A DNA stretch of 64,000 nucleotides from an uncultured Ruminococcus sp. (lineage in GTDB: Bacteria; Bacillota; Clostridia; Oscillospirales; Acutalibacteraceae), in the NCBI GenBank assembly GCA_902785355.1, contig CACZYF010000011.1, positions 1-64,000 of the forward strand. The letters are read 5' to 3'. Every line of letters starts with the position of its first letter. Position 1 is the stretch's first letter. The notes beneath the pieces were generated by a model. It saw nothing but the letters and a program-made list of their open reading frames with translations, made no database searches and had not been told where the DNA came from. The translations under genes were made by a program, and so were the position numbers. Positions 9,475 to 18,605 of this stretch are shown here, piece after piece.

Positions 9475-9503
9475 TTGACTTTTGCGCTTTAACGTGCTAT
9501 CAT
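9475..9503 (+). promoter_or_regulatory. Promoter of the aromatic amino-acid operon
   Basis: TTGACT (9475-9480), 17-bp spacer, TATCAT (9498-9503). The spacer holds CTTTAACGTGCTA, which recurs in the spacer of the amino-acid transporter promoter at 19405. Transcription from here would begin just before the leader peptide. Confidence 0.8.
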
Positions 9504-9535
9504 AGGCGCAGACTGATGTGAAAGGAGTTATTGTC

Positions 9536-9628
9536 ATGAAAAATACTGCGTTACAGTTCAATAACTGCTTTTACTTTACCTTCGCGCGCTTTTATGCGGG
9601 CTTTGCTTGCTATACGGAAAAAGTATGA
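9536..9628 (+). CDS. Phe/Tyr-rich leader peptide of the aromatic operon
   Basis: A 30-codon frame with ATG at 9536, ribosome binding site AAAGGAG 8 nt upstream, and TGA at 9626-9628. It encodes six Phe and three Tyr, most of them in the cluster FYFTFARFY (residues 12-20). It lies between a good promoter and an intrinsic terminator, directly before chorismate mutase-prephenate dehydratase. This is the layout of a ribosome-mediated attenuator: shortage of charged tRNA-Phe or tRNA-Tyr would stall the ribosome and favour read-through. The function is inferred from position and codon content; the frame, site and terminator are seen directly. Confidence 0.88.
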   Translation: MKNTALQFNNCFYFTFARFYAGFACYTEKV

Positions 9629-9659
9629 CGCTCGAACGGTAACAGGTGCTTTGAAACTT

Positions 9660-9692
9660 AGCGGTTCTGTTTTCGGGCAGAGCCGCTTTTTA
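9660..9692 (+). terminator. Attenuator terminator of the aromatic operon
   Basis: AGCGGTTCTG (9660-9669) pairs with CAGAGCCGCT (9678-9687, one G-U pair), followed by six T. An alternative pairing exists: CGAA (9633-9636) plus AACAG (9641-9645), just after the leader stop codon, can pair with CTGTTTTCG (9667-9675), which would break the terminator stem and serve as antiterminator. Confidence 0.85.
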
Positions 9693-9724: not shown

Positions 9725-10828
9725 ATGGATAACTTACAAGATGCGCGATCGGCGATCAATGAGATCGACAGGGAGATGGCGGCGCTGTTTGAGCGGCGTA
9801 TGCAGGCGGCGAAGGTGATCGCCGAGTACAAGAAGGAACACGGACTGCAGATCTATGACGCTCAACGTGAGCGTGCGGTCATCGAGAAAAACTCAGCCTA
9901 TATCAATGATTATGAGATCCGCTCCTACTATGTACGCTTTCTTAACGATGTAATGGCGGTGTCGAAGCAGTATCAGGAGCATCTCATCAGCGGTACGAAG
10001 ATCGCCTACAGCGGGATCGAGGGCGCTTTCGCCAATATCGCCGCGAAGAAGGCGTTCCCATACGGCAGGGCGATTGCTTATCCCGATTTTCATGCGGCTT
10101 ATAAGGCGGTGGAGAACGGCGAATGTGACTGCTGTGTGCTCCCGATCGAGAACAGCTACGCCGGCGAGGTAGGACAGGTCATGGATATGATGTTCCGCGG
10201 CTCGCTCTACGTCAACGGAATCTATACCCTCAGGATCACCCATAATCTGCTTGGATTGGAAGGCGCCTCCGTGAAGGATATCAAGACGGTTGTCAGCCAT
10301 CCCCAGGCGCTTGCGCAGTGTGCGGAATATATTCGTAAGAACGGTTATCATACGATGGAATATGCCAATACCGCGAAGGCGGCGAAGGCAGTGAAGGACG
10401 GCGGTGACAGGAGCGTCGCGGCGATCGCTTCGTCCGAGACCGCGCGGCTCTATGGGTTGAGCGTGCTCGATCATGATATCAACGAGAGCTCGACCAACTC
10501 CACACGTTTCGCGGTATTCTCCCGAGCGGAGAACAGACAGGTCAATACCTCAGGCGACAGCCGCTTTCTCCTGATGTTCACCGTTAAGAACGAGGCGGGC
10601 GCGCTGGCTCAGGCGCTGAACGTACTGAGCAGCTATGGCTTCAACATGCGCGCACTTCATTCGCGCCCGTTGAAGGAACTCGCGTGGCAGTATTACTTCT
10701 ACATCGAAGCCGAGGGTGACGAGACCGGACAGAACGGCTCCGATATGCTGCGGCATCTGGCGCTCCACTGCGATATGCTCAAGGTGGTCGGTCATTACAG
10801 CGACGAAGTGATTTTGAAAGAGGATTAA
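9725..10828 (+). CDS. pheA: Bifunctional chorismate mutase / prephenate dehydratase (P-protein)
   Basis: Converts chorismate to prephenate and then to phenylpyruvate, the Phe branch. The 367 residues hold an AroQ-type chorismate mutase (about 1-88, with R11-like and ERRMQAAKVIAEYK motif), a prephenate dehydratase domain (about 92-275; IAYSGIEGAFA, catalytic-loop ESSTNSTRF) and a C-terminal ACT domain (GALAQALNVLSSYGFNMRALHSRP) that in this family binds Phe for feedback inhibition. First structural gene after the attenuator; aroB starts 2 bp after its stop, so translation is probably coupled. Having the Phe-committed, Phe-sensing enzyme first fits a Phe-codon leader. Confidence 0.95.
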   Translation: MDNLQDARSAINEIDREMAALFERRMQAAKVIAEYKKEHGLQIYDAQRERAVIEKNSAYINDYEIRSYYVRFLNDVMAVSKQYQEHLISGTKIAYSGIEGAFANIAAKKAFPYGRAIAYPDFHAAYKAVENGECDCCVLPIENSYAGEVGQVMDMMFRGSLYVNGIYTLRITHNLLGLEGASVKDIKTVVSHPQALAQCAEYIRKNGYHTMEYANTAKAAKAVKDGGDRSVAAIASSETARLYGLSVLDHDINESSTNSTRFAVFSRAENRQVNTSGDSRFLLMFTVKNEAGALAQALNVLSSYGFNMRALHSRPLKELAWQYYFYIEAEGDETGQNGSDMLRHLALHCDMLKVVGHYSDEVILKED

Positions 10829-10830
10829 AC

Positions 10831-11847
10831 ATGAGTGTTTTGCGTATGAATCTGGGCGCGGACAGCTATGATATCGTTATCGAGCGCGGCGCTTTAAAAA
10901 GAGCGGGTGAACTGCTGAATCTCGACCGCAAGGTGCTGGTGCTGACCGATGACGGAGTGCCTGCAGAATATGCGGCGGCTGTCGCCGGTCAGGCGAAGGA
11001 TGGGACAGTATTCACCGTATTGCAGGGCGAGGACAGCAAGAGCCTTGAACGCTTCGGCGAGATTTTGTCCAAGATGCTGAGTCTCGGCTTTACCCGTAAG
11101 GACGCGGTCGTCGCAGTCGGCGGCGGCGTTGTGGGCGATCTCGCGGGCTTTGCCGCTTCGGCATATATGCGCGGGGTGGATTTCTACAACATCCCCACGA
11201 CGGTACTCAGCCAGGTGGATTCGTCCATCGGCGGTAAGACGGCAGTGAATCTCGACGGCATCAAGAACATCGTAGGCGCTTTTTATCAGCCGAAGAAGGT
11301 ACTGGTCGACCTCGATCTGCTTGCGACCTTGCCCGATCGTCAGATCAGTAACGGACTCGCGGAAGCGGTGAAGATGAGCCTGACGAGTGACGCGGATTTG
11401 TTCGAATTATTCGAAAAAGGAAATATAAAAGAAAATCTCGACGAGATCATCACCCGCTCGCTGATAATTAAGAAGAACGTCGTCGAACAGGACGAGAAAG
11501 AGCAGGGACTCAGAAAGATCCTGAACTTCGGTCACACGATCGGACACGGTATCGAGAGCTTTGAACACCTCAACGGTCTTTACCACGGCGAGTGCGTCGC
11601 GCTCGGTATGATCCCGATGGTCGGCGATGAAGTCAGACCCCGCCTGTTGAGAGTTCTGGAGAGGTTGAATCTTCCTACGTCGGTATCACTCGACGCAGAC
11701 GAGGTGTATCGCGCGATGACGCATGACAAGAAGGGCGAGGGTGATACCGTTACGATCACTACCGTACCCGCTCCCGGACAGTTTGAAATGAAAAAGGTTC
11801 AGTTTGAAGAACTGATTCCCATGATTGAAATGGTAGGGAAACTCTGA
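10831..11847 (+). CDS. aroB: 3-Dehydroquinate synthase
   Basis: Second step of the shikimate pathway: DAHP to 3-dehydroquinate, with NAD and a divalent metal. The 338 residues show the NAD-binding GGGVVGDLAGFAAS stretch around residue 97, the substrate-binding PTTVLSQVDSSIGGKT motif, and metal ligands in LAEAVKM and in FGHTIGHGIE. Slightly short against the usual 350-360 but all motifs are present. It starts 2 bp after pheA and its TGA overlaps the ATG of aroC. Confidence 0.96.
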   Translation: MSVLRMNLGADSYDIVIERGALKRAGELLNLDRKVLVLTDDGVPAEYAAAVAGQAKDGTVFTVLQGEDSKSLERFGEILSKMLSLGFTRKDAVVAVGGGVVGDLAGFAASAYMRGVDFYNIPTTVLSQVDSSIGGKTAVNLDGIKNIVGAFYQPKKVLVDLDLLATLPDRQISNGLAEAVKMSLTSDADLFELFEKGNIKENLDEIITRSLIIKKNVVEQDEKEQGLRKILNFGHTIGHGIESFEHLNGLYHGECVALGMIPMVGDEVRPRLLRVLERLNLPTSVSLDADEVYRAMTHDKKGEGDTVTITTVPAPGQFEMKKVQFEELIPMIEMVGKL

Positions 11848-12944
11848 TGAAAAATACCTTTGGAAATTCGATAGCGCTGACGCTGTTTGGCGAGAGCCAC
11901 GGCGAGATGATCGGCGCGGTGATCGACGGCTTGGCGCCCGGTCTGGATATTGACGAGGATTTTATCCGCGCTCAGCTCGATAAACGACGTCCCGCCGGGA
12001 AGATCTCTACCGCGCGCCATGAGGCGGATGAATTCAGCATCGTCAGCGGCGCGTTCAACGGAAAAACGACCGGAACGCCCCTGACCATCCTGATTCCGAA
12101 CACCTCTCAGCACAGTAAGGATTATGCGGCGACCCGCTCGCTGGCACGTCCCGGACACGCCGATTACACGGCGTATAAAAAGTATCACGGCTTCGAGGAT
12201 TATCGCGGCGGCGGTCATTTCTCGGGCAGAGTGACGGCGGCGCTCGTCGCGGCAGGCGCGATTTTGATTCAGGCTTTAGTGAAAAAGGGTATCGCTATCG
12301 GTACGCATATCCGCTCCTGCGCGGGGATCGAGGACGCCGGTTTCGGTGATCTCAGCGCGGATATCGCACGTTTAAACACGCTTGGTTTTGCGGTTCTCGA
12401 CACCGAGAAGGGAGAGCAGATGCGTAAGGCAATCGAAGCGGCTGCCGCAGAGGGCGACAGCGTCGGCGGCGTGTTGGAGACGGTTGTGACCGGGTTGCCC
12501 GCGGGCGTCGGAGAGCCTTGGTTCGATACCGTCGAAGGAGTGCTTTCACACGCGCTGTTCTCGGTGCCGGCTGTAAAGGGAGTTGAGTTCGGCGATGCGT
12601 TCGGTATGGTGAACGGCAGGGGCTCCGAATATAACGACAGTTTTTATATTTTTGAAAAAGAAATAAAAACCACTACCAATCATAACGGCGGTATCAACGG
12701 TGGTATCACCAACGGTATGCCGATCCTGTTCCGCTGTGCCGTCAAGCCGACCCCCTCGATCTTCAAGGAACAGGCGACGGTTGATTTTATCAAGGGTGAG
12801 AACGCCTCTTTGTCGCTCAAGGGCAGACACGATCCCGCAATCATTCACCGTGCGTGCGTTGTCGTGGACAGCGTGACGGCGCTGGTGCTTGCCGATCTGT
12901 TAGCACAGAGATACGGCACGGACTGTTTAGCTTCTCTTTCCTAA
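11847..12944 (+). CDS. aroC: Chorismate synthase
   Basis: Makes chorismate from EPSP using reduced FMN. The 365 residues carry GESHGEMIGAVIDG near the N-terminus, RPGHADYTAYKKY and the GGHFSGR flavin-site motif around residue 122, and RHDPAIIHRA near the C-terminus. The ATG overlaps the aroB stop codon (ATGA). The gene ends at 12944 inside the left end of a palindromic intergenic repeat that separates it from aroE-K. Confidence 0.96.
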   Translation: MKNTFGNSIALTLFGESHGEMIGAVIDGLAPGLDIDEDFIRAQLDKRRPAGKISTARHEADEFSIVSGAFNGKTTGTPLTILIPNTSQHSKDYAATRSLARPGHADYTAYKKYHGFEDYRGGGHFSGRVTAALVAAGAILIQALVKKGIAIGTHIRSCAGIEDAGFGDLSADIARLNTLGFAVLDTEKGEQMRKAIEAAAAEGDSVGGVLETVVTGLPAGVGEPWFDTVEGVLSHALFSVPAVKGVEFGDAFGMVNGRGSEYNDSFYIFEKEIKTTTNHNGGINGGITNGMPILFRCAVKPTPSIFKEQATVDFIKGENASLSLKGRHDPAIIHRACVVVDSVTALVLADLLAQRYGTDCLASLS

Positions 12945-13067
12945 GGGAGGCTCCCGATAGGGTAGAGGGTTGCCTATATGATTAGATGCAGTGTTGAAAG
13001 GCGATTATTTGAGCGACACGTAACTCTCAGCCGCTTCACGACAGCTCCCTAAGGTAAGGGAGCCTTC
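12943..13067. repeat. Palindromic intergenic repeat between aroC and aroE-K
   Basis: AAGGGAGGCTCCC at the left end faces GGGAGCCT at the right end. The right end also holds a hairpin, GCTCCCT (13044-13050) and AGGGAGC (13057-13063), preceded by CTCAGCCGCTTCACGACA. This resembles dispersed palindromic repeats I know from Oscillospiraceae and Lachnospiraceae intergenic DNA (from memory). No gene is present in 12945-13081. It probably does not stop the operon, as no U-tract follows. Confidence 0.55.
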
Positions 13068-13081
13068 AGAAAGGAAACATT

Positions 13082-14314
13082 ATGGACTACGGATTGATCG
13101 GAGAGAAGCTGCCCCACAGCTTTTCCAAGGAAATACATGAAAAGCTCGGGTATTATCAATATTCTATTAAAGAACTAAAAAGAGAAGAATTAACCGACTT
13201 TATTCTGCAAAAGAATTTTAAAGGAATCAATGTGACGATCCCCTATAAGCAGGAAGTGATCTCGCTTTTGGATGAGATCGCTCCCGAAGCGCGGTCGATC
13301 GGCGCGGTGAACACGGTCGTCAACCGTGACGGCGTGCTGTACGGCTACAACACCGATTTCGGCGGTATGCGGGCGCTGATCGAGCACGCGGGCGTCGTAA
13401 TCAAGTACAAGAAGGTGCTGATCCTCGGTACCGGCGGCACTTCGCTGACCGCGACGGCTGTTTGTCAGCGGTTGGATGCGAAGGAAGTCCTGCGCGTCAG
13501 CCGCTCGGGCAACGGCGGCGCGATCACATACGAGCAGGCGCATACGGAGCACAGTGACGCCGATGTGATCATCAACACGACTCCCTGCGGAATGTATCCG
13601 AATATCTTTGACTGTCCTATCGATCTTTCACGGTTCCCGAAGCTCAGCGGCGTGATCGACGCGGTGTATAATCCGCTGCAAACACGTTTGATATTGTCCG
13701 CGCGTGAACGCGGTATCGATGCCGAGGGCGGGTTGTATATGCTCGTTGCTCAGGCGGTGTTGGCGGCGCAGTTGTTTCTCGATGAAGAATGGGACGTCGT
13801 CAAGCTGACCAACAGGATATATAACGAAATATATTTCGATAAAAGAAATATAGTACTCAGCGGAATGCCTGCTTCCGGTAAGTCGACGGTCGGTAAGCTG
13901 ATCGCGAAAAAGCTCGGCAGAGAACTGCTCGATACCGACCGGCTGATCGTGGAGCGTGAGGGCGATATCCCGACGATCTTCAGGGAGAAGGGGGAGAAGT
14001 ACTTCCGCGATCTGGAGAGTTCCGTAATCCGTGACGTCGCGGTATTGAGCGGTAAGGTGATCTCTCTCGGCGGCGGCGCGATCCTACGGGACGAGAATGT
14101 AATGGCGCTGCGACAGAACGGCGCGATCTACTTTATTGATCGTTCGCCGGAATACCTGATCCCGACCTCCGATCGTCCGCTTGCGGATAAAAAAGAGAAG
14201 ATGATGCGCCTGTATGAGAAGCGCATCGATACCTATTTGAATACGGCTGATTACGTCATCGACGGCGATTGTGACCCCGGGGACGTTGCCGACAGCGTGA
14301 TAAACGGAGAGTGA
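13082..14314 (+). CDS. aroE-aroK: Shikimate dehydrogenase - shikimate kinase fusion
   Basis: One 410-residue protein for two consecutive steps: NADPH-dependent reduction of 3-dehydroshikimate and phosphorylation of shikimate. The N-terminal part (about 1-250) has HSFSKEIHEKLG, the catalytic NVTIPYK motif, GAVNTVV, YNTDFGG and a GTGGTS nucleotide loop. The C-terminal part (about 255-410) is a P-loop kinase with GMPASGKST, the shikimate-binding LDTDRLIVE and GGGAIL. The kinase half has near-normal length, so the fusion looks functional. AAAGGAAA lies upstream of the ATG. It resumes the operon after the palindromic repeat. Confidence 0.94.
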   Translation: MDYGLIGEKLPHSFSKEIHEKLGYYQYSIKELKREELTDFILQKNFKGINVTIPYKQEVISLLDEIAPEARSIGAVNTVVNRDGVLYGYNTDFGGMRALIEHAGVVIKYKKVLILGTGGTSLTATAVCQRLDAKEVLRVSRSGNGGAITYEQAHTEHSDADVIINTTPCGMYPNIFDCPIDLSRFPKLSGVIDAVYNPLQTRLILSARERGIDAEGGLYMLVAQAVLAAQLFLDEEWDVVKLTNRIYNEIYFDKRNIVLSGMPASGKSTVGKLIAKKLGRELLDTDRLIVEREGDIPTIFREKGEKYFRDLESSVIRDVAVLSGKVISLGGGAILRDENVMALRQNGAIYFIDRSPEYLIPTSDRPLADKKEKMMRLYEKRIDTYLNTADYVIDGDCDPGDVADSVINGE

Positions 14315-14349: not shown

Positions 14350-14784
14350 ATGAAAATACTGGTAATCAACGGACCGAATCTGAATATGCTTGGTATTCGT
14401 GAGCCGGACATCTATGGCAAAACCACTTATGCCGCGCTGGTTGCTTTGATCGAAGAATACGCTCAGAAAACCAATATTGAGGTCGAACAGTACCAGAGCA
14501 ACCACGAGGGCGATCTGGTTGATAAAATACAGGATGCATACGGAAAATTCGACGGAATCGTCATCAACCCCGGCGCTTATACCCATACGAGCGTTGCGAT
14601 CCTTGACGCGCTCAAGGCGGTAGCGATCCCTGCCGTAGAGGTGCATATCTCCGAGGTCGACAAGCGCGAGAAGTTCAGGCAGATCAGTTATGTACGGCTC
14701 GCGTGCGTTGCAACGATCACAGGTCACGGCGTAGACGGCTACACGGAAGCGATGGATCTGCTGAGGGAAAAGTATGAGGGTTGA
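14350..14784 (+). CDS. aroQ: 3-Dehydroquinate dehydratase, type II
   Basis: Dehydrates 3-dehydroquinate to 3-dehydroshikimate. The 144 residues are typical of the small dodecameric type II enzyme: NGPNLNMLGIREPDIYG with the catalytic Tyr of the lid, QSNHEGDLVD, INPGAYTHTSVAILDAL and EVHISEVDKREKFR. Its last 11 bp overlap the start of aroA, suggesting coupled translation. Confidence 0.97.
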   Translation: MKILVINGPNLNMLGIREPDIYGKTTYAALVALIEEYAQKTNIEVEQYQSNHEGDLVDKIQDAYGKFDGIVINPGAYTHTSVAILDALKAVAIPAVEVHISEVDKREKFRQISYVRLACVATITGHGVDGYTEAMDLLREKYEG

Positions 14785-15988
14785 GATTCGACCGTCAAAG
14801 GCTCATGGTACGGCCACTGCTCCGCCGAGCAAGAGTATGGCACACCGTCTGCTGATCTGCGCGGGGCTTGCCGAAGGTGAGAGCGTCGTGCGGCTGATCG
14901 CGTTTTCACAGGACGTCAAGGCAACGATTGCCTGCCTTCGGGCTCTCGGTGCGGAGATACGGACCGACGGCGATACCGTTTACGTAAAGGGTGTGGATGT
15001 GAGAAAGCCTCTCGGTTCATCGACGACCCTGCCCTGTAACGAGTGCGGAAGTACGCTGAGGTTTTTTACCCCGCTGTGTATGCTCAGCGGCGAGGAACGT
15101 GTGCTGACAGGCTCCGCGTACCTTATGAAGCGTCCGATGACCGTTTATGAGGAACTTGCACAGGAGCAGAACGTCCGCTTTGTAAAAGCCGATGAAAGCA
15201 TCACGGTACAAGGATGTTTGCACAGCGGCGTGTATGAAGTACCGGGAAATATCAGCTCGCAGTTTATCTCGGGATTGCTTTTTACCTTGCCGTTGCTTAG
15301 CGGCGACAGCGAGCTAAGAATCCTTCCTCCGATCGAGAGCAAGCCGTATATCGATATGACGATCTCGGCTCTGCGTGATTTCGGTGTTAATATTTCTAAT
15401 AAAGAAAATACTTATTATATCAAGGGTAGCCAACGGTATGCCGCCTGTAAAACGACCGTCGAGGGAGATTGCTCTAACGCAGCGTTCTTTGAAGCGCTGA
15501 ACTTTGCCGGTTCCGATGTGACTGTCGGAGGACTGAGAGAAGATACTTTACAAGGTGACAGGATTTATAAAATTCTTTTTAAGAAAATAAAGAACACGGA
15601 CGAAGTCATCGATATTGCCGATTGTCCCGATCTGGGACCGGTGCTGTTCGCGGTCGCGGCATTGTGCGGCGGTGCGCGCTTTACCGGTACACGGCGGCTT
15701 CGTATCAAGGAGAGCGACCGTGCCGAGGCGATGCGCCGGGAGCTTGATAAACTCGGCGTAACGGTCGAGGTGGGGGAGAATACCGTCGATGTATTGCCCT
15801 CGGTGCTTCATGCTCCGTCACAGCCCCTCAGCGGGCATAACGATCATCGTATCGTGATGGCGCTGAGCGTTATGCTGACCGTGACAGGCGGCGTGATTGA
15901 AGGAGCTCAGGCAGTGGATAAGAGCTTTCCCGACTTTTTTGACAGACTGAAAGATTTAGGAGTGGATTTGACCTATGGAATGGATTAG
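14774..15988 (+). CDS. aroA: 3-Phosphoshikimate 1-carboxyvinyltransferase (EPSP synthase)
   Basis: Joins PEP to shikimate-3-phosphate. The 404 residues include the substrate-binding PPSKSMAHRLLI near the N-terminus, the PEP-site NECGSTLRFF around residue 89, KESDRAEAM, and GHNDHRIVMAL. Slightly shorter than the usual 425-430, compatible with the compact class found in clostridia. The NxxGSTLR spelling has Ser where many enzymes have Thr or Ala near the PEP site. It overlaps aroQ by 11 bp and tyrA by 14 bp. Confidence 0.95.
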   Translation: MRVEIRPSKAHGTATAPPSKSMAHRLLICAGLAEGESVVRLIAFSQDVKATIACLRALGAEIRTDGDTVYVKGVDVRKPLGSSTTLPCNECGSTLRFFTPLCMLSGEERVLTGSAYLMKRPMTVYEELAQEQNVRFVKADESITVQGCLHSGVYEVPGNISSQFISGLLFTLPLLSGDSELRILPPIESKPYIDMTISALRDFGVNISNKENTYYIKGSQRYAACKTTVEGDCSNAAFFEALNFAGSDVTVGGLREDTLQGDRIYKILFKKIKNTDEVIDIADCPDLGPVLFAVAALCGGARFTGTRRLRIKESDRAEAMRRELDKLGVTVEVGENTVDVLPSVLHAPSQPLSGHNDHRIVMALSVMLTVTGGVIEGAQAVDKSFPDFFDRLKDLGVDLTYGMD

Positions 15989-16829
15989 TCATTCGAGAAT
16001 ACTGATCGTCGGCTTGGGATTGATCGGCGGCAGCTACGCCCGCGGATTGAAACGGCTTGGCTTTCATGTCAGCGCGATCGAGAAGCGGCAGTCCGCTGTC
16101 GACTACGCGCTGGAGAATCATATCATCGACGACGGCTATACGACGGTAGAGCCTGAGATCGTCAGCTCAGCCGACGCGGTGATCTTCGCGCTCTATCCCG
16201 AGGTGTTCCGTCAGTGGATCGCCGAGTATCAGCAGCTTTTTAAGCCCGGCGCCATGATCACCGACGTTACCGGCGTCAAGAGCTGTATCGTATATGATAT
16301 ACAGAACATGCTCCGTGATGATGTGGAGTTCATCGCCTCTCACCCGATGGCAGGTCGTGAGGTGTACGGCGTAGAGAACTCCGACGACGCGATCTTCCGC
16401 GGCGCGAACTTCATCGTCGTTCCGACTGAGAAGAATACCGCCGAAGGCATCCGCTGGATCGGCAGTCTCGGCAGAATACTCGGCTTCGGCAGGATCTCCG
16501 TACTGTCTCCCGAGGAACACGACGAGATGATCGGCTACCTCTCTCAGCTGACTCACTGTATCGCGGTGGCACTGATGACCTGCTCGGATAACGAGCACCT
16601 GGTCGATTATACGGGTGACAGCTTTCGCGATCTGACGAGGATCGCTAACATCAACGATCTGATGTGGAGCGAGCTGTTCATGCTCAACCGTGAATCGCTC
16701 CTGAAATATATGGATATCTTTCTCGACGAATTTGCCGCGCTCAGGGATATGATCCGCGACGGCAGGGTAGATGAGCTGAGAGAAAAGATGCGTCTGAGTA
16801 CCAAACGCAGAGCGTATTTCAATAAATAA
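15975..16829 (+). CDS. tyrA: Prephenate dehydrogenase
   Basis: NAD(P)-dependent oxidative decarboxylation of prephenate to 4-hydroxyphenylpyruvate, the Tyr branch. The 284 residues start with a Rossmann nucleotide loop (VGLGLIGGSYARGL), then SHPMAGRE with the catalytic His and LTHCIAVALM in the helical domain. It lacks a chorismate mutase or ACT extension; the mutase activity would come from pheA. The start overlaps the end of aroA. Confidence 0.94.
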   Translation: MEWISHSRILIVGLGLIGGSYARGLKRLGFHVSAIEKRQSAVDYALENHIIDDGYTTVEPEIVSSADAVIFALYPEVFRQWIAEYQQLFKPGAMITDVTGVKSCIVYDIQNMLRDDVEFIASHPMAGREVYGVENSDDAIFRGANFIVVPTEKNTAEGIRWIGSLGRILGFGRISVLSPEEHDEMIGYLSQLTHCIAVALMTCSDNEHLVDYTGDSFRDLTRIANINDLMWSELFMLNRESLLKYMDIFLDEFAALRDMIRDGRVDELREKMRLSTKRRAYFNK

Positions 16830-16850: not shown

Positions 16851-17885
16851 ATGAACATGAATATGGAATTTGAACGAAAGCTGACTATCCCGATGGAGGT
16901 CAAGAAGATGTATCCGCTCGACAATGATCTCAGAAAGCTTGTTGTCGACCGGGAAAGGCAGATACAGGATATTTTCAGCGGCAAGGATAATCGTCTGGTG
17001 CTGATCATCGGTCCCTGCTCCGCTGACCGTGAGGACAGTGTGATAGACTATATCAGCCGTCTGAGAACGGTGCAGGACAAGGTCGAGGACAAGATTTTTA
17101 TTATCCCGCGTATCTACACCAACAAGCCCCGCACCACCGGCTCGGGCTATAAAGGTATGCTGCATCAGCCTGATCCCGAGAAGAAGCCCGATATGTTCAA
17201 GGGCATTGTTGCGATCCGTTCGATGCATTTGCGCGCACTCAAAGAGACCGGCTTCTCATGCGCGGATGAGATGCTTTACCCCGAGAATCATCGCTATCTG
17301 GATGATCTCCTGGGCTATGTGGCGATCGGCGCCCGCTCGGTCGAGAACCAGCAGCATCGTCTGGTTGCTTCGGGACTGGATATACCCGTCGGCATGAAGA
17401 ACCCGACCGGCGGCGACCTCTCCGTTATGATGAATTCGATCACCGCCGCTCAGCACGGACATACCTTCCTGTACCGCGGATGGGAGGTACAGTCACACGG
17501 CAATCCCTATGCGCACGCGATCCTTCGCGGTTACATGAACAAGCACGGCGAGAGCCTGCCGAACTACCATTATGAGGATATGATGCATCTGCTCCGCCTT
17601 TATGCTTCGGGAAACTTCAAAAACCCCGCCTGCATCATCGACACCAATCATTCCAACTCCGATAAACATCCCTTTGAGCAGGCGCGTATTGCGAAAGAGG
17701 TGATGTTCGCCCGCCGTTACAATCCCGAGCTGGAGCGCCTGGTCAAGGGCTTCATGATCGAGAGCTACATCGAGGACGGGAATCAGGCGGTAGACGGCGG
17801 ATGCTACGGCAAGTCTATCACCGATCCGTGCCTTGGATGGGAAAAGACCGAGAGACTGATCCTCGAGCTTGCCGAGTTGGCTTGA
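16851..17885 (+). CDS. aroF: 3-Deoxy-7-phosphoheptulonate synthase, class I (AroF/G/H type)
   Basis: First committed step of the shikimate pathway: PEP plus erythrose-4-phosphate. The 344 residues carry LIIGPCSADREDSV with a metal-ligand Cys, PRTTGSGYKG, GARSVENQQHR, KNPTGGDLS and DTNHSNSDKHP, all of the E. coli AroG-like class I-alpha family. It lacks a separate N-terminal ACT or mutase domain. GGAGGG precedes the ATG by about 9 nt. Last gene of the operon, though it is the first reaction. Which of Phe, Tyr or Trp inhibits it cannot be told by eye. Confidence 0.94.
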   Translation: MNMNMEFERKLTIPMEVKKMYPLDNDLRKLVVDRERQIQDIFSGKDNRLVLIIGPCSADREDSVIDYISRLRTVQDKVEDKIFIIPRIYTNKPRTTGSGYKGMLHQPDPEKKPDMFKGIVAIRSMHLRALKETGFSCADEMLYPENHRYLDDLLGYVAIGARSVENQQHRLVASGLDIPVGMKNPTGGDLSVMMNSITAAQHGHTFLYRGWEVQSHGNPYAHAILRGYMNKHGESLPNYHYEDMMHLLRLYASGNFKNPACIIDTNHSNSDKHPFEQARIAKEVMFARRYNPELERLVKGFMIESYIEDGNQAVDGGCYGKSITDPCLGWEKTERLILELAELA

Positions 17886-17963: not shown

Positions 17964-18515
17964 ATGATAACCATTCTATCGGGCAAATTAACTATCCCCG
18001 AGGACGAACGCTTTATCGGTTTTTCCGGAGATGATCAAAGTCGGCAGATCGAGCTGCTGCTTATGCACTTTACTGCGCGAAACAGTGTTTATGAGCTTGG
18101 ATTGCGCTTTGATGACGGTACTGTCCGAACAGTGCCGCTCGGTGCGGAGCGCCATGACAGCGATGTACTGCTGACGTGGAAGGTTCAGCGCGATCAGCTG
18201 TACAGCCCGGGCGTCGTAACGGCACAGCTGAAGATTATCAGCGGCGACGGCAGAGTTATCCATTCTTCGCGCGATTATTTTCTGGTCGGCGGGAATACGG
18301 ACGGCGACGGCAGTGATGACGATTATGTTACGGTTAAGCTGCTGGAACAAAGGCTGGGCGACGTGAGAGCAAAATTGCCTTATGTCAATGAGAACGGTGC
18401 GTTCATCGTCGGCAGCGACGGCGACGTCAGGATCGCAAAATCCGACGAGGTATATTCCAAGGATGAGATTGACGAAATGATTCGCGATATCAAGACGCAG
18501 CTTAACCTGACCTAG
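17964..18515 (+). CDS. Orphan phage baseplate-like (BppU-N type) protein
   Basis: A 183-residue protein with a strong ribosome binding site (GGAGGTG) and its own downstream terminator. The N-terminal 110 residues (IPEDERFIGFSGDDQSRQIE, DVLLTWKVQRDQLYSPGVV, VIHSSRDYFLV) resemble the beta-rich N-terminal domain of siphophage baseplate upper proteins (DUF2479-like). The rest has an acidic linker and a tail-fibre-like end (FIVGSDGDVRIAK). No other tail gene is nearby and the prophage is 23 kb away, so it is either a leftover or a domesticated host gene. The family assignment rests on pattern only. Confidence 0.55.
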   Translation: MITILSGKLTIPEDERFIGFSGDDQSRQIELLLMHFTARNSVYELGLRFDDGTVRTVPLGAERHDSDVLLTWKVQRDQLYSPGVVTAQLKIISGDGRVIHSSRDYFLVGGNTDGDGSDDDYVTVKLLEQRLGDVRAKLPYVNENGAFIVGSDGDVRIAKSDEVYSKDEIDEMIRDIKTQLNLT

Positions 18516-18561
18516 CACGTTTCGACAGATACGGGCGAGTTTTATCTGCTTGTAACAAAAG

Positions 18562-18605
18562 ATCCCGATGTGCTGTAAAAACTACGGCACATCGGGATTG
18601 TTATT
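18562..18605 (+). terminator. Intrinsic terminator after the baseplate-like gene
   Basis: A perfect 12-bp stem, ATCCCGATGTGC (18562-18573) and GCACATCGGGAT (18587-18598), followed by TTGTTATTG. Confidence 0.75.

Follow-up and report, generated by a model that had tools for sequence, protein, structure and literature searches.

A conserved leader element before the shikimate/Phe/Tyr operon of an uncultured Ruminococcus sp., a probable ribosome-mediated transcription attenuator

The locus described here raises the question of how the charging of two aromatic tRNAs could be coupled to the expression of an entire biosynthetic pathway. In enterobacteria, the pheL-pheA and trpL-trp attenuators consist of a leader ORF with cognate codons, the stems 1:2, 2:3, and 3:4, and a terminator; T-box riboswitches bind tRNA directly and have no leader ORF, and TRAP-controlled leaders carry a series of GAG/UAG repeats that are bound by TRAP. 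The DNA analyzed comprises positions 1 to 64,000 of the forward strand of contig CACZYF010000011.1 from an uncultured Ruminococcus sp. (GCA_902785355.1), and this whole stretch of 64,000 nt is referred to as the window. Downstream of mfd and directly before pheA, positions 9475-9691 hold a promoter, a 30-codon leader, three alternative stems, and a terminator. This conserved leader element with its predicted alternative stems very probably acts as a ribosome-mediated transcription attenuator that couples tRNA-Phe/tRNA-Tyr charging to the whole shikimate/Phe/Tyr operon, a reading drawn from sequence comparison and folding models.

The aromatic operon behind the leader comprises the following genes:

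9725 to 10828, + strand: pheA, fused chorismate mutase-prephenate dehydratase; best family, below the curated cut-off
10831 to 11847, + strand: aroB, 3-dehydroquinate synthase; passes the curated NCBIfam cut-off
11847 to 12944, + strand: aroC, chorismate synthase; passes the curated NCBIfam cut-off
13082 to 14314, + strand: aroE-aroK fusion, shikimate dehydrogenase plus shikimate kinase; best family, below the curated cut-off
14350 to 14784, + strand: aroQ, type II 3-dehydroquinate dehydratase; passes the curated NCBIfam cut-off
14774 to 15988, + strand: aroA, EPSP synthase; best family, below the curated cut-off
15975 to 16829, + strand: tyrA, prephenate dehydrogenase; best family, below the curated cut-off
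16851 to 17885, + strand: aroF-type DAHP synthase; passes the curated NCBIfam cut-off

A preliminary description of the region had spoken of eight shikimate/Phe/Tyr genes, and all eight were recovered by family matches. Together these ORFs account for every one of the seven shikimate steps and for both branches, to Phe and to Tyr, and thereby make the very amino acids whose codons mark the leader. The names pheA, aroE-aroK, aroA, and tyrA rest on best family, gene order, and pathway completeness, since the scores lie below the curated cut-offs. The longest intergenic gap (12945-13081) is free of promoter-like and terminator-like sites, and behind aroF the next strong terminator-like site of this strand lies at 18561-18599; the eight genes presumably form one transcript. 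An ORF of 183 aa (17964-18515), with no NCBIfam or Pfam match, lies behind aroF and before that terminator, and possibly belongs to the transcript as a ninth gene.

The regulatory region itself is made up of the following elements:

9475 to 9503, + strand: promoter TTGACT-17-TATCAT with extended -10 (TG); motif match, conserved in the genus, spacer included
9521 to 9533, + strand: Shine-Dalgarno (SD) region of the leader, 5' arm of a predicted SD-closing stem; duplex with 9559-9571
9536 to 9628, + strand: leader peptide frame MKNTALQFNNCFYFTFARFYAGFACYTEKV, stop TGA at 9626-9628; ORF reading, core kept in relatives
9559 to 9571, + strand: codons N-N-C-F plus the last base of F8, 3' arm of the predicted SD-closing stem; folding, swap test
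9576 to 9588, + strand: segment 1 (codons F-T-F-A-R), partner of segment 2; alignment pairing, 12 pairs
9584 to 9601, + strand: coding hairpin GCGCGC-TTTTAT-GCGGGC (codons A-R-[F-Y]-A-G), then U-rich codons; synonymous-shuffle folding, frozen third bases
9629 to 9645, + strand: segment 2 (CGCTCGAACGGTAACAG), directly after the stop codon, partner of segment 1 or 3; alignment pairing, swap test
9667 to 9678, + strand: segment 3 (CTGTTTTCGGGC), top of the terminator 5' arm plus loop, antiterminator with segment 2; alignment pairing, 12 pairs
9660 to 9691, + strand: predicted intrinsic terminator (3:4), stem 9660-9669 / 9678-9687, five T to 9691; sequence, alignment

The leader starts with AAAGGAG at 9521-9527 and an ATG at 9536, and nine of the 30 codons of MKNTALQFNNCFYFTFARFYAGFACYTEKV are aromatic (six Phe and three Tyr), in agreement with what had been described; a short ORF with a ribosome-binding site and codons enriched for the product amino acids, as found in ribosomal attenuators, is thus in place. 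Between this frame and the first structural gene lies the predicted intrinsic terminator, which had been credited with six T; the hairpin is present, at 9660-9687, and the T run after GCCGC amounts to five (9687-9691), with the first T paired and the U tract short. The possible competing pairing mentioned earlier can now be placed as stems 1:2 (9576-9588 with 9629-9642), 2:3 (9630-9636 and 9641-9645 with 9667-9678), and 3:4. Stem 2:3 is conserved and overlaps the terminator, and on geometric grounds 2:3 and 3:4 should exclude each other, since 2:3 takes up the top of the terminator 5' arm and its loop, and few nucleotides would be left to span the 12-pair helix if both were present. Compared with 200 dinucleotide shuffles, the fold of the leader RNA is 3.5 sd better, and no shuffle equals it. 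With pheL-pheA and trpL-trp the element shares the cognate-codon leader, the three stems, the stop beside segment 2, and the terminator before the structural genes; unlike them, it uses both Phe and Tyr codons before an operon that encodes the entire common pathway, codons of its leader are predicted to pair with the SD, it holds a separate coding-region hairpin, and it has no Rfam counterpart.

A PheA search of genome contigs, from which 80 loci were kept, identified a leader of the same type before pheA in 25 of them, including the window's own copy (L001) and that of G023 (L006). Leaders were aligned with MAFFT (A1, 25 rows; A2, 24 distinct rows with the window first, on which all stem statistics were calculated; L002, L003, L005, L007, L009, and L011 are not in the alignments), and in both alignments a conserved core follows a drifting N-terminus. 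Insertions of repeat-like DNA were seen by eye between terminator and pheA in L036, L038, and L040, and between promoter and SD in L044 and L045, whose promoters are found 116-117 nt ahead of the leader start; none was seen by eye between SD and terminator in the 25 loci. Some of these insertions carry inverted arms, e.g., CCTTCCCCTTGAGGGGAAGG.

The promoter had been called consensus-type, and does match the consensus at 10 of 12 positions, with TG preceding the -10 element. The motif alone proves nothing, since two promoter-like matches occur in the leader stretch against 1.0 ± 1.0 in shuffles; promoter and spacer, however, are kept in 19 of the 25 loci by a strict regular expression. Four of the loci missed (L001, L031, L038, L054) fail, by eye, only by a TG in place of TA before TTGAC, and the promoter differs in the remaining two (L049, L060). 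The spacer (9481-9497, TTTTGCGCTTTAACGTG) shows near base-by-base conservation in the genus, beyond the needs of a promoter, and, being part-palindromic by eye, is perhaps an operator. A role of the promoter motif as operator of a regulon was rejected, the 29-mer pattern occurring once in its own genome at up to 3 mismatches.

The pairing of the three stems was followed across A2. Stem 1:2 is paired in 90.6% of 288 cells, stem 2:3 in 97.2% of 286, and the nearly invariant stem 3:4 in 97.9%; sliding the partner by 1-3 columns lowers pairing to 29-42% for 1:2 and 29-61% for 2:3. Double-change cells number 12 in 1:2 against 6.2 ± 1.5 in shuffles, and five in 2:3 against 0.9 ± 0.8, with covariation scores of 0.172 against 0.120 and 0.130 against 0.099, respectively (0/500 for each of the four comparisons). 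Columns 20 and 80 of stem 1:2, for instance, read CG9/AU7/GU2/GC1 with 5 unpaired, and two column pairs of 2:3 read CG21/UA3 and AU15/GU5/GC2. Counts of double-changed pairs and of pair types, the covariation measures least inflated by relatedness, do not exceed chance, either for 1:2 (2 vs 1.8 in shuffles, 338/500; 10 vs 10.2, 394/500) or for 2:3 (2 vs 0.8, 87/500; 7 vs 6.8, 316/500). Exchange of segments between species provides an alignment-free test, although relatedness is still part of its signal: native 1:2 partners give -13.92 vs -12.06 when swapped (0/20000; 20 distinct pairs), and those of 2:3 give -13.27 vs -12.27 (9/20000; 19 distinct). No covariation was found in stem 3:4 on A2, and its swap test was null as well (13141/20000).

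Pairing between leader codons and segment 2 is thus present in the window and most rows, the exceptions being the divergent L047, L048, L052, and L053, whose 1:2 is weak in the tested segment (-7.8, -2.1, -3.5, and -9.6 kcal/mol, respectively). When these four are left out of the swap test, the 1:2 signal stays (0/20000) and that of 2:3 is gone (2448/20000). With respect to segment 2, the Thr codon ACC occurs mostly with GGT, ACA with TGT, and ACG with CGT in L054, while L051 (ACC with CGT) and L049 (ACG with TGT) are mismatched. Judged from these sequences, 1:2 and 2:3 covary on most, not all, measures. The preliminary description had looked to relatives for conservation and for covariation of the stems. 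The first expectation was largely borne out, in that relatives share the leader core, the position of the stop, segment 2, and the terminator but diverge in the first codons; the second was borne out for 1:2 and 2:3 on several measures, but four divergent relatives have no clear 1:2.

The stop TGA abuts segment 2, which begins at 9629, as the stop of an attenuator should. The consequences of ribosome position were modeled by folding 25 loci with a ribosome at each codon, a 3' footprint of 9, 12, or 15 nt, and a transcript ending at segment 3, the formation of 2:3 being expressed as an index (expected pairs / 11, so that values above 1 are possible). At aromatic codons the mean index is 1.06, with 97, 96, and 96% of 224 above 0.5 for the three footprints; at other codons it is 0.78-0.80 (72, 74, and 76% above 0.5), and at the stop 0.59, 0.49, and 0.35. 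In these models the aromatic codons lie in an antitermination zone, a ribosome at the stop weakens the antiterminator, neither basal state is fully closed, and antitermination would also occur at non-aromatic codons lying between aromatic ones. The models do not predict complete termination, since the index is 0.72 without a ribosome and only comes down to 0.35-0.59 at the stop.

The following sequence of events can be proposed. With Phe and Tyr plentiful, the ribosome would get to the stop at 9626 and cover segment 2, upon which 3:4 would form and RNA polymerase would stop near 9691, leaving an RNA of ~180 nt. Under a shortage of charged tRNA-Phe or tRNA-Tyr, the ribosome would stall at one of the nine codons between 9557 and 9613 and cover segment 1; 2:3 would then pair before segment 4 is made, and transcription would continue into pheA. 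The earlier reading of the region as a ribosome-stalling attenuator on an aromatic operon is supported, at the level of sequence, by the leader, its cognate codons, the overlapping segments, and the stop placement.

A different proposal would be that a ligand-binding riboswitch or an RNA-binding protein of the TRAP type regulates the operon and that the leader ORF is incidental, with which the strong base-level conservation of the terminator and segment 2 would agree. No Rfam family was detected at the leader, however, whether at the gathering score or with E values up to 1; the proteobacterial Phe leader is not matched there, nor is the T-box covariance model (RF00230), which does match elsewhere in the same genome. 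In addition, the placement of the segments fits the codons and the stop, and the aromatic codons fall almost wholly in the antitermination zone, making this proposal extremely improbable beside attenuation by a translating ribosome.

Attenuation of this kind could be assisted by two further structures. The first is the duplex between the SD region and codons of the leader itself (9521-9533 with 9559-9571), for which native partners give -9.17 vs -7.65 kcal/mol when swapped (3/20000 permutations; 23 distinct pairs); the stem is strong but of quite different sequence in L049, and weak in L048 (-4.1) and a few others. Such a closure of the SD would favor a ribosome that loads early. The second is the hairpin around ARFYAG, in which the third bases of the A, R, A, and G codons equal those of the window in 80 of 83 comparisons (21 loci; L031, L040, and L006 left out), the reference in pheA being 1125 of 2183 for A, G, P, T, V, and CGN-Arg codons with the same residue. 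In 13 of 14 leaders, which are not independent of each other, the hairpin beats the mean of synonymous shuffles (mean z -1.84; exception L124), and that of the window taken alone is non-significant (130 of 1000 shuffles as good). We infer from these foldings that 9584-9601 is a candidate RNA polymerase pause hairpin, which would keep ribosome and polymerase in step; its 5' arm is partly shared with stem 1:2, an overlap that may explain some of the frozen bases.

The same conservation evokes two readings at the level of the peptide. The short ORF could encode a functional conserved small protein, the terminator being merely that of a small gene, and the core [AV]R[FYWLC][FY][AG]G does recur across families. 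Protein constraint alone, however, leaves the near-frozen third bases of A-R-A-G unexplained, the N-terminus drifts, sequence 3' of the stop covaries with codons within the frame, and different aromatic leaders occupy the same place in other lineages, so that a small protein is highly improbable. Alternatively, the nascent ARFYAGF chain could arrest the ribosome, with sensing occurring via the exit tunnel and not via tRNA charging. R-F-[FY]-A-G is indeed kept beyond what codon counting needs, including in an element before a transporter (see below), but the same residues follow from an RNA hairpin read in that frame, the loop residues vary (WY, CF, YF, LF), and other lineages use different aromatic peptides; we consider arrest very unlikely, and ribosome-mediated attenuation through tRNA charging remains the preferred reading.

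The distribution of the element was explored with a covariance model built on stems 1:2 and 3:4. At an E cut-off of 0.01 it matches 40 of the 161 genus genomes; in 30 of the 161 the element is found at E 4.2e-23 or better, the next best value being 1.5e-4. In the order, 24 of 295 genomes match at E 0.01. The seven best matches outside the genus (G239, G240, G052, G310, G074, G136, and G149; E 8.4e-18 to 5.1e-6) come from three families and all have a leader frame, with the peptide core recurring across families. In G239, G240, and G310 the element precedes a chorismate mutase-prephenate dehydratase gene, with a DUF554 gene between in G239, while the other four copies, from one genus, precede another kind of gene. 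In the one of these four that was tested (L189, G074:C14:27600-33600), the peptide VYFSFVRFFAGAFYFAYYYFTSY lies before an ABC substrate-binding protein (PF04392), a permease (PF02653), and an ABC ATPase; going by the leader sequence, this transporter is probably an aromatic (Phe/Tyr) amino acid importer. Two weaker matches were inspected, L128 (E 1.2e-5) and L144 (G000:C1:40473, in the window's own genome, E 3.8e-4); neither has a leader by eye, and both were discarded as noise.

An IUPAC pattern of the coding hairpin matches in 29 of 394 and 8 of 291 genomes. All fetched loci were read (G240:C183 had no locus), and those with an aromatic-run leader and terminator are the window, G052, G074, G136, G149, G239, and G240, all of which are also covariance-model matches. 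The others were rejected as lying in long frames or having no SD; L155, L156, and L178 have an SD-like start, with no terminator or aromatic operon seen. As for PheA itself, 35 other sampled genomes of the genus comprise five with at least 81% identity, one with 56%, 27 with 32-39%, and two without PheA. None of 19 loci of the distant type (L012-L030, 15 of them from the genus) has a leader that reaches 7 F/Y/W in 20 residues, the best having 4, the test being weaker in six, where the match begins inside the gene and the stretch is partly coding. No Rfam RNA was found at gathering score in these 19 loci, and 16 further loci yielded only a tRNA.

Aromatic leaders are not restricted to this family. 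In a survey for an SD followed by at least 7 F/Y/W in 20 residues, 43 of 79 loci qualified by having at least 120 nt free before pheA; leader-like ORFs precede pheA in 28 of the 43, vs 5 of 254 among the other genes in those loci, and the 28 comprise 19 of the window's own leader family and nine of other kinds. Among 11 control places with at least 6 F/Y/W, five were read (L091, L096, L099, L101, L109), and since four lie before DAHP synthase and one before DUF554, with pheA 0.9-1.9 kb later, they look like the same kind and not like background. Other aromatic leader peptides differ from that of the window, as seen in KFFYYFYYFAKGCPS, CFYFYMTRAMDCD, AKFFAGFFAAF, and YRFYYYYAAVRH; L009 also carries a leader (MFFESCYFYFYFTRRCPYSF). 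Another leader kind, with an F/Y run and then a CP[SL] motif, precedes DAHP synthase genes in L091, L099, and L101 and pheA in L106. Directly behind an aromatic leader and upstream of pheA, a DUF554 gene is found in two lineages (L190:371-1186 and L096:8244-8945), an arrangement that hints at some involvement of DUF554 in the physiology of aromatic amino acids.

T-boxes resemble the element in the window by sensing tRNA charging and controlling a terminator, and differ from it by direct tRNA binding with no leader ORF. Nine T-box matches occur in the same genome, three above the curated score; those before pheS and trpE reach 90.3 and 84.8 bits, both below the curated 93. Phe-tRNA charging is thus probably sensed in two ways, through a T-box in the case of pheS and through a leader peptide in that of biosynthesis. 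Two other sub-curated matches (L117 and L118, contig C22) are close to long frames whose products look, by eye, like AMP-binding enzymes that carry a helix-turn-helix at the N-terminus. The view of the preliminary description that aromatic genes of Firmicutes are usually under T-box or TRAP control agrees with the matches before pheS and trpE, and the part of PMC2494555 drawn upon reports that, in the B. cereus group, the tyrosine operon is controlled by a T-box. The contrast that it made with Firmicutes practice holds less well, since leader-peptide attenuators have already been described there for His and Leu, according to the portions of PMC2965389, PMC9413887, and PMC5794164 used here.

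Those portions allow a closer comparison. PMC2965389 describes His leaders before hisS/hisZ in bacilli, its authors stating in the section concerned that none was known to them outside Proteobacteria and Actinobacteria, and passages of PMC9413887 deal with his-operon attenuators in several Firmicutes. These likewise employ leader-peptide attenuation in place of a T-box or repressor, but, as far as these passages go, concern hisS/hisZ and the his operon in bacilli, Peptostreptococcaceae and Lutispora, and Erysipelotrichales. The Leu-rich attenuator of S. aureus ilv-leu, as presented in part of PMC5794164, where earlier predictions in Lactococcus and Streptococcus are cited, has a leader peptide, terminator, and antiterminator like those of the window; it responds to Leu and is backed by selected mutants, whereas the present element is known by its sequence. 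Closest in target is the uORFC-13-1 motif, which in the excerpt of PMC8632094 consulted is a Phe-coding upstream ORF and terminator before aroF in Acholeplasma; it differs in being described there for Acholeplasma and environmental sequences only, with a U-run coding at least one Phe before a DAHP synthase gene. Among the open-access papers listed by literature searches, none was seen to describe clostridial Phe/Tyr leaders upstream of pheA or of shikimate operons, and the element in the window, a well-supported case of classical ribosome-mediated attenuation, can be taken as a new family of this kind.

A wider picture, whose chance of being right in all its parts we judge to be about even, would be that Ruminococcus-like Clostridia possess an attenuator family not listed before, in which translation of the leader is itself gated, the SD is closed by the leader's own codons, a coding hairpin with a Phe/Tyr loop paces RNA polymerase, and one early ribosome decides on ten enzymatic activities; the element would have spread between families and targets (the pheA operon, DUF554-pheA, and an ABC transporter), and Phe/Tyr attenuation would have arisen many times in Clostridia beside T-boxes. 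Given the variety of leaders that precede aroF and pheA in other Clostridia, this mode of regulation may have been largely overlooked, and the signature of peptide plus stems offers a means to find more such elements, including those before the probable aromatic amino acid importer and DUF554. If the reading is true, one charging-sensitive switch would act on the entire shikimate pathway and on both the Phe and Tyr branches in Clostridia whose named relatives are largely rumen and gut assemblies, and both sensor types would stand side by side in one genome, within a group where T-boxes are the expected sensor.
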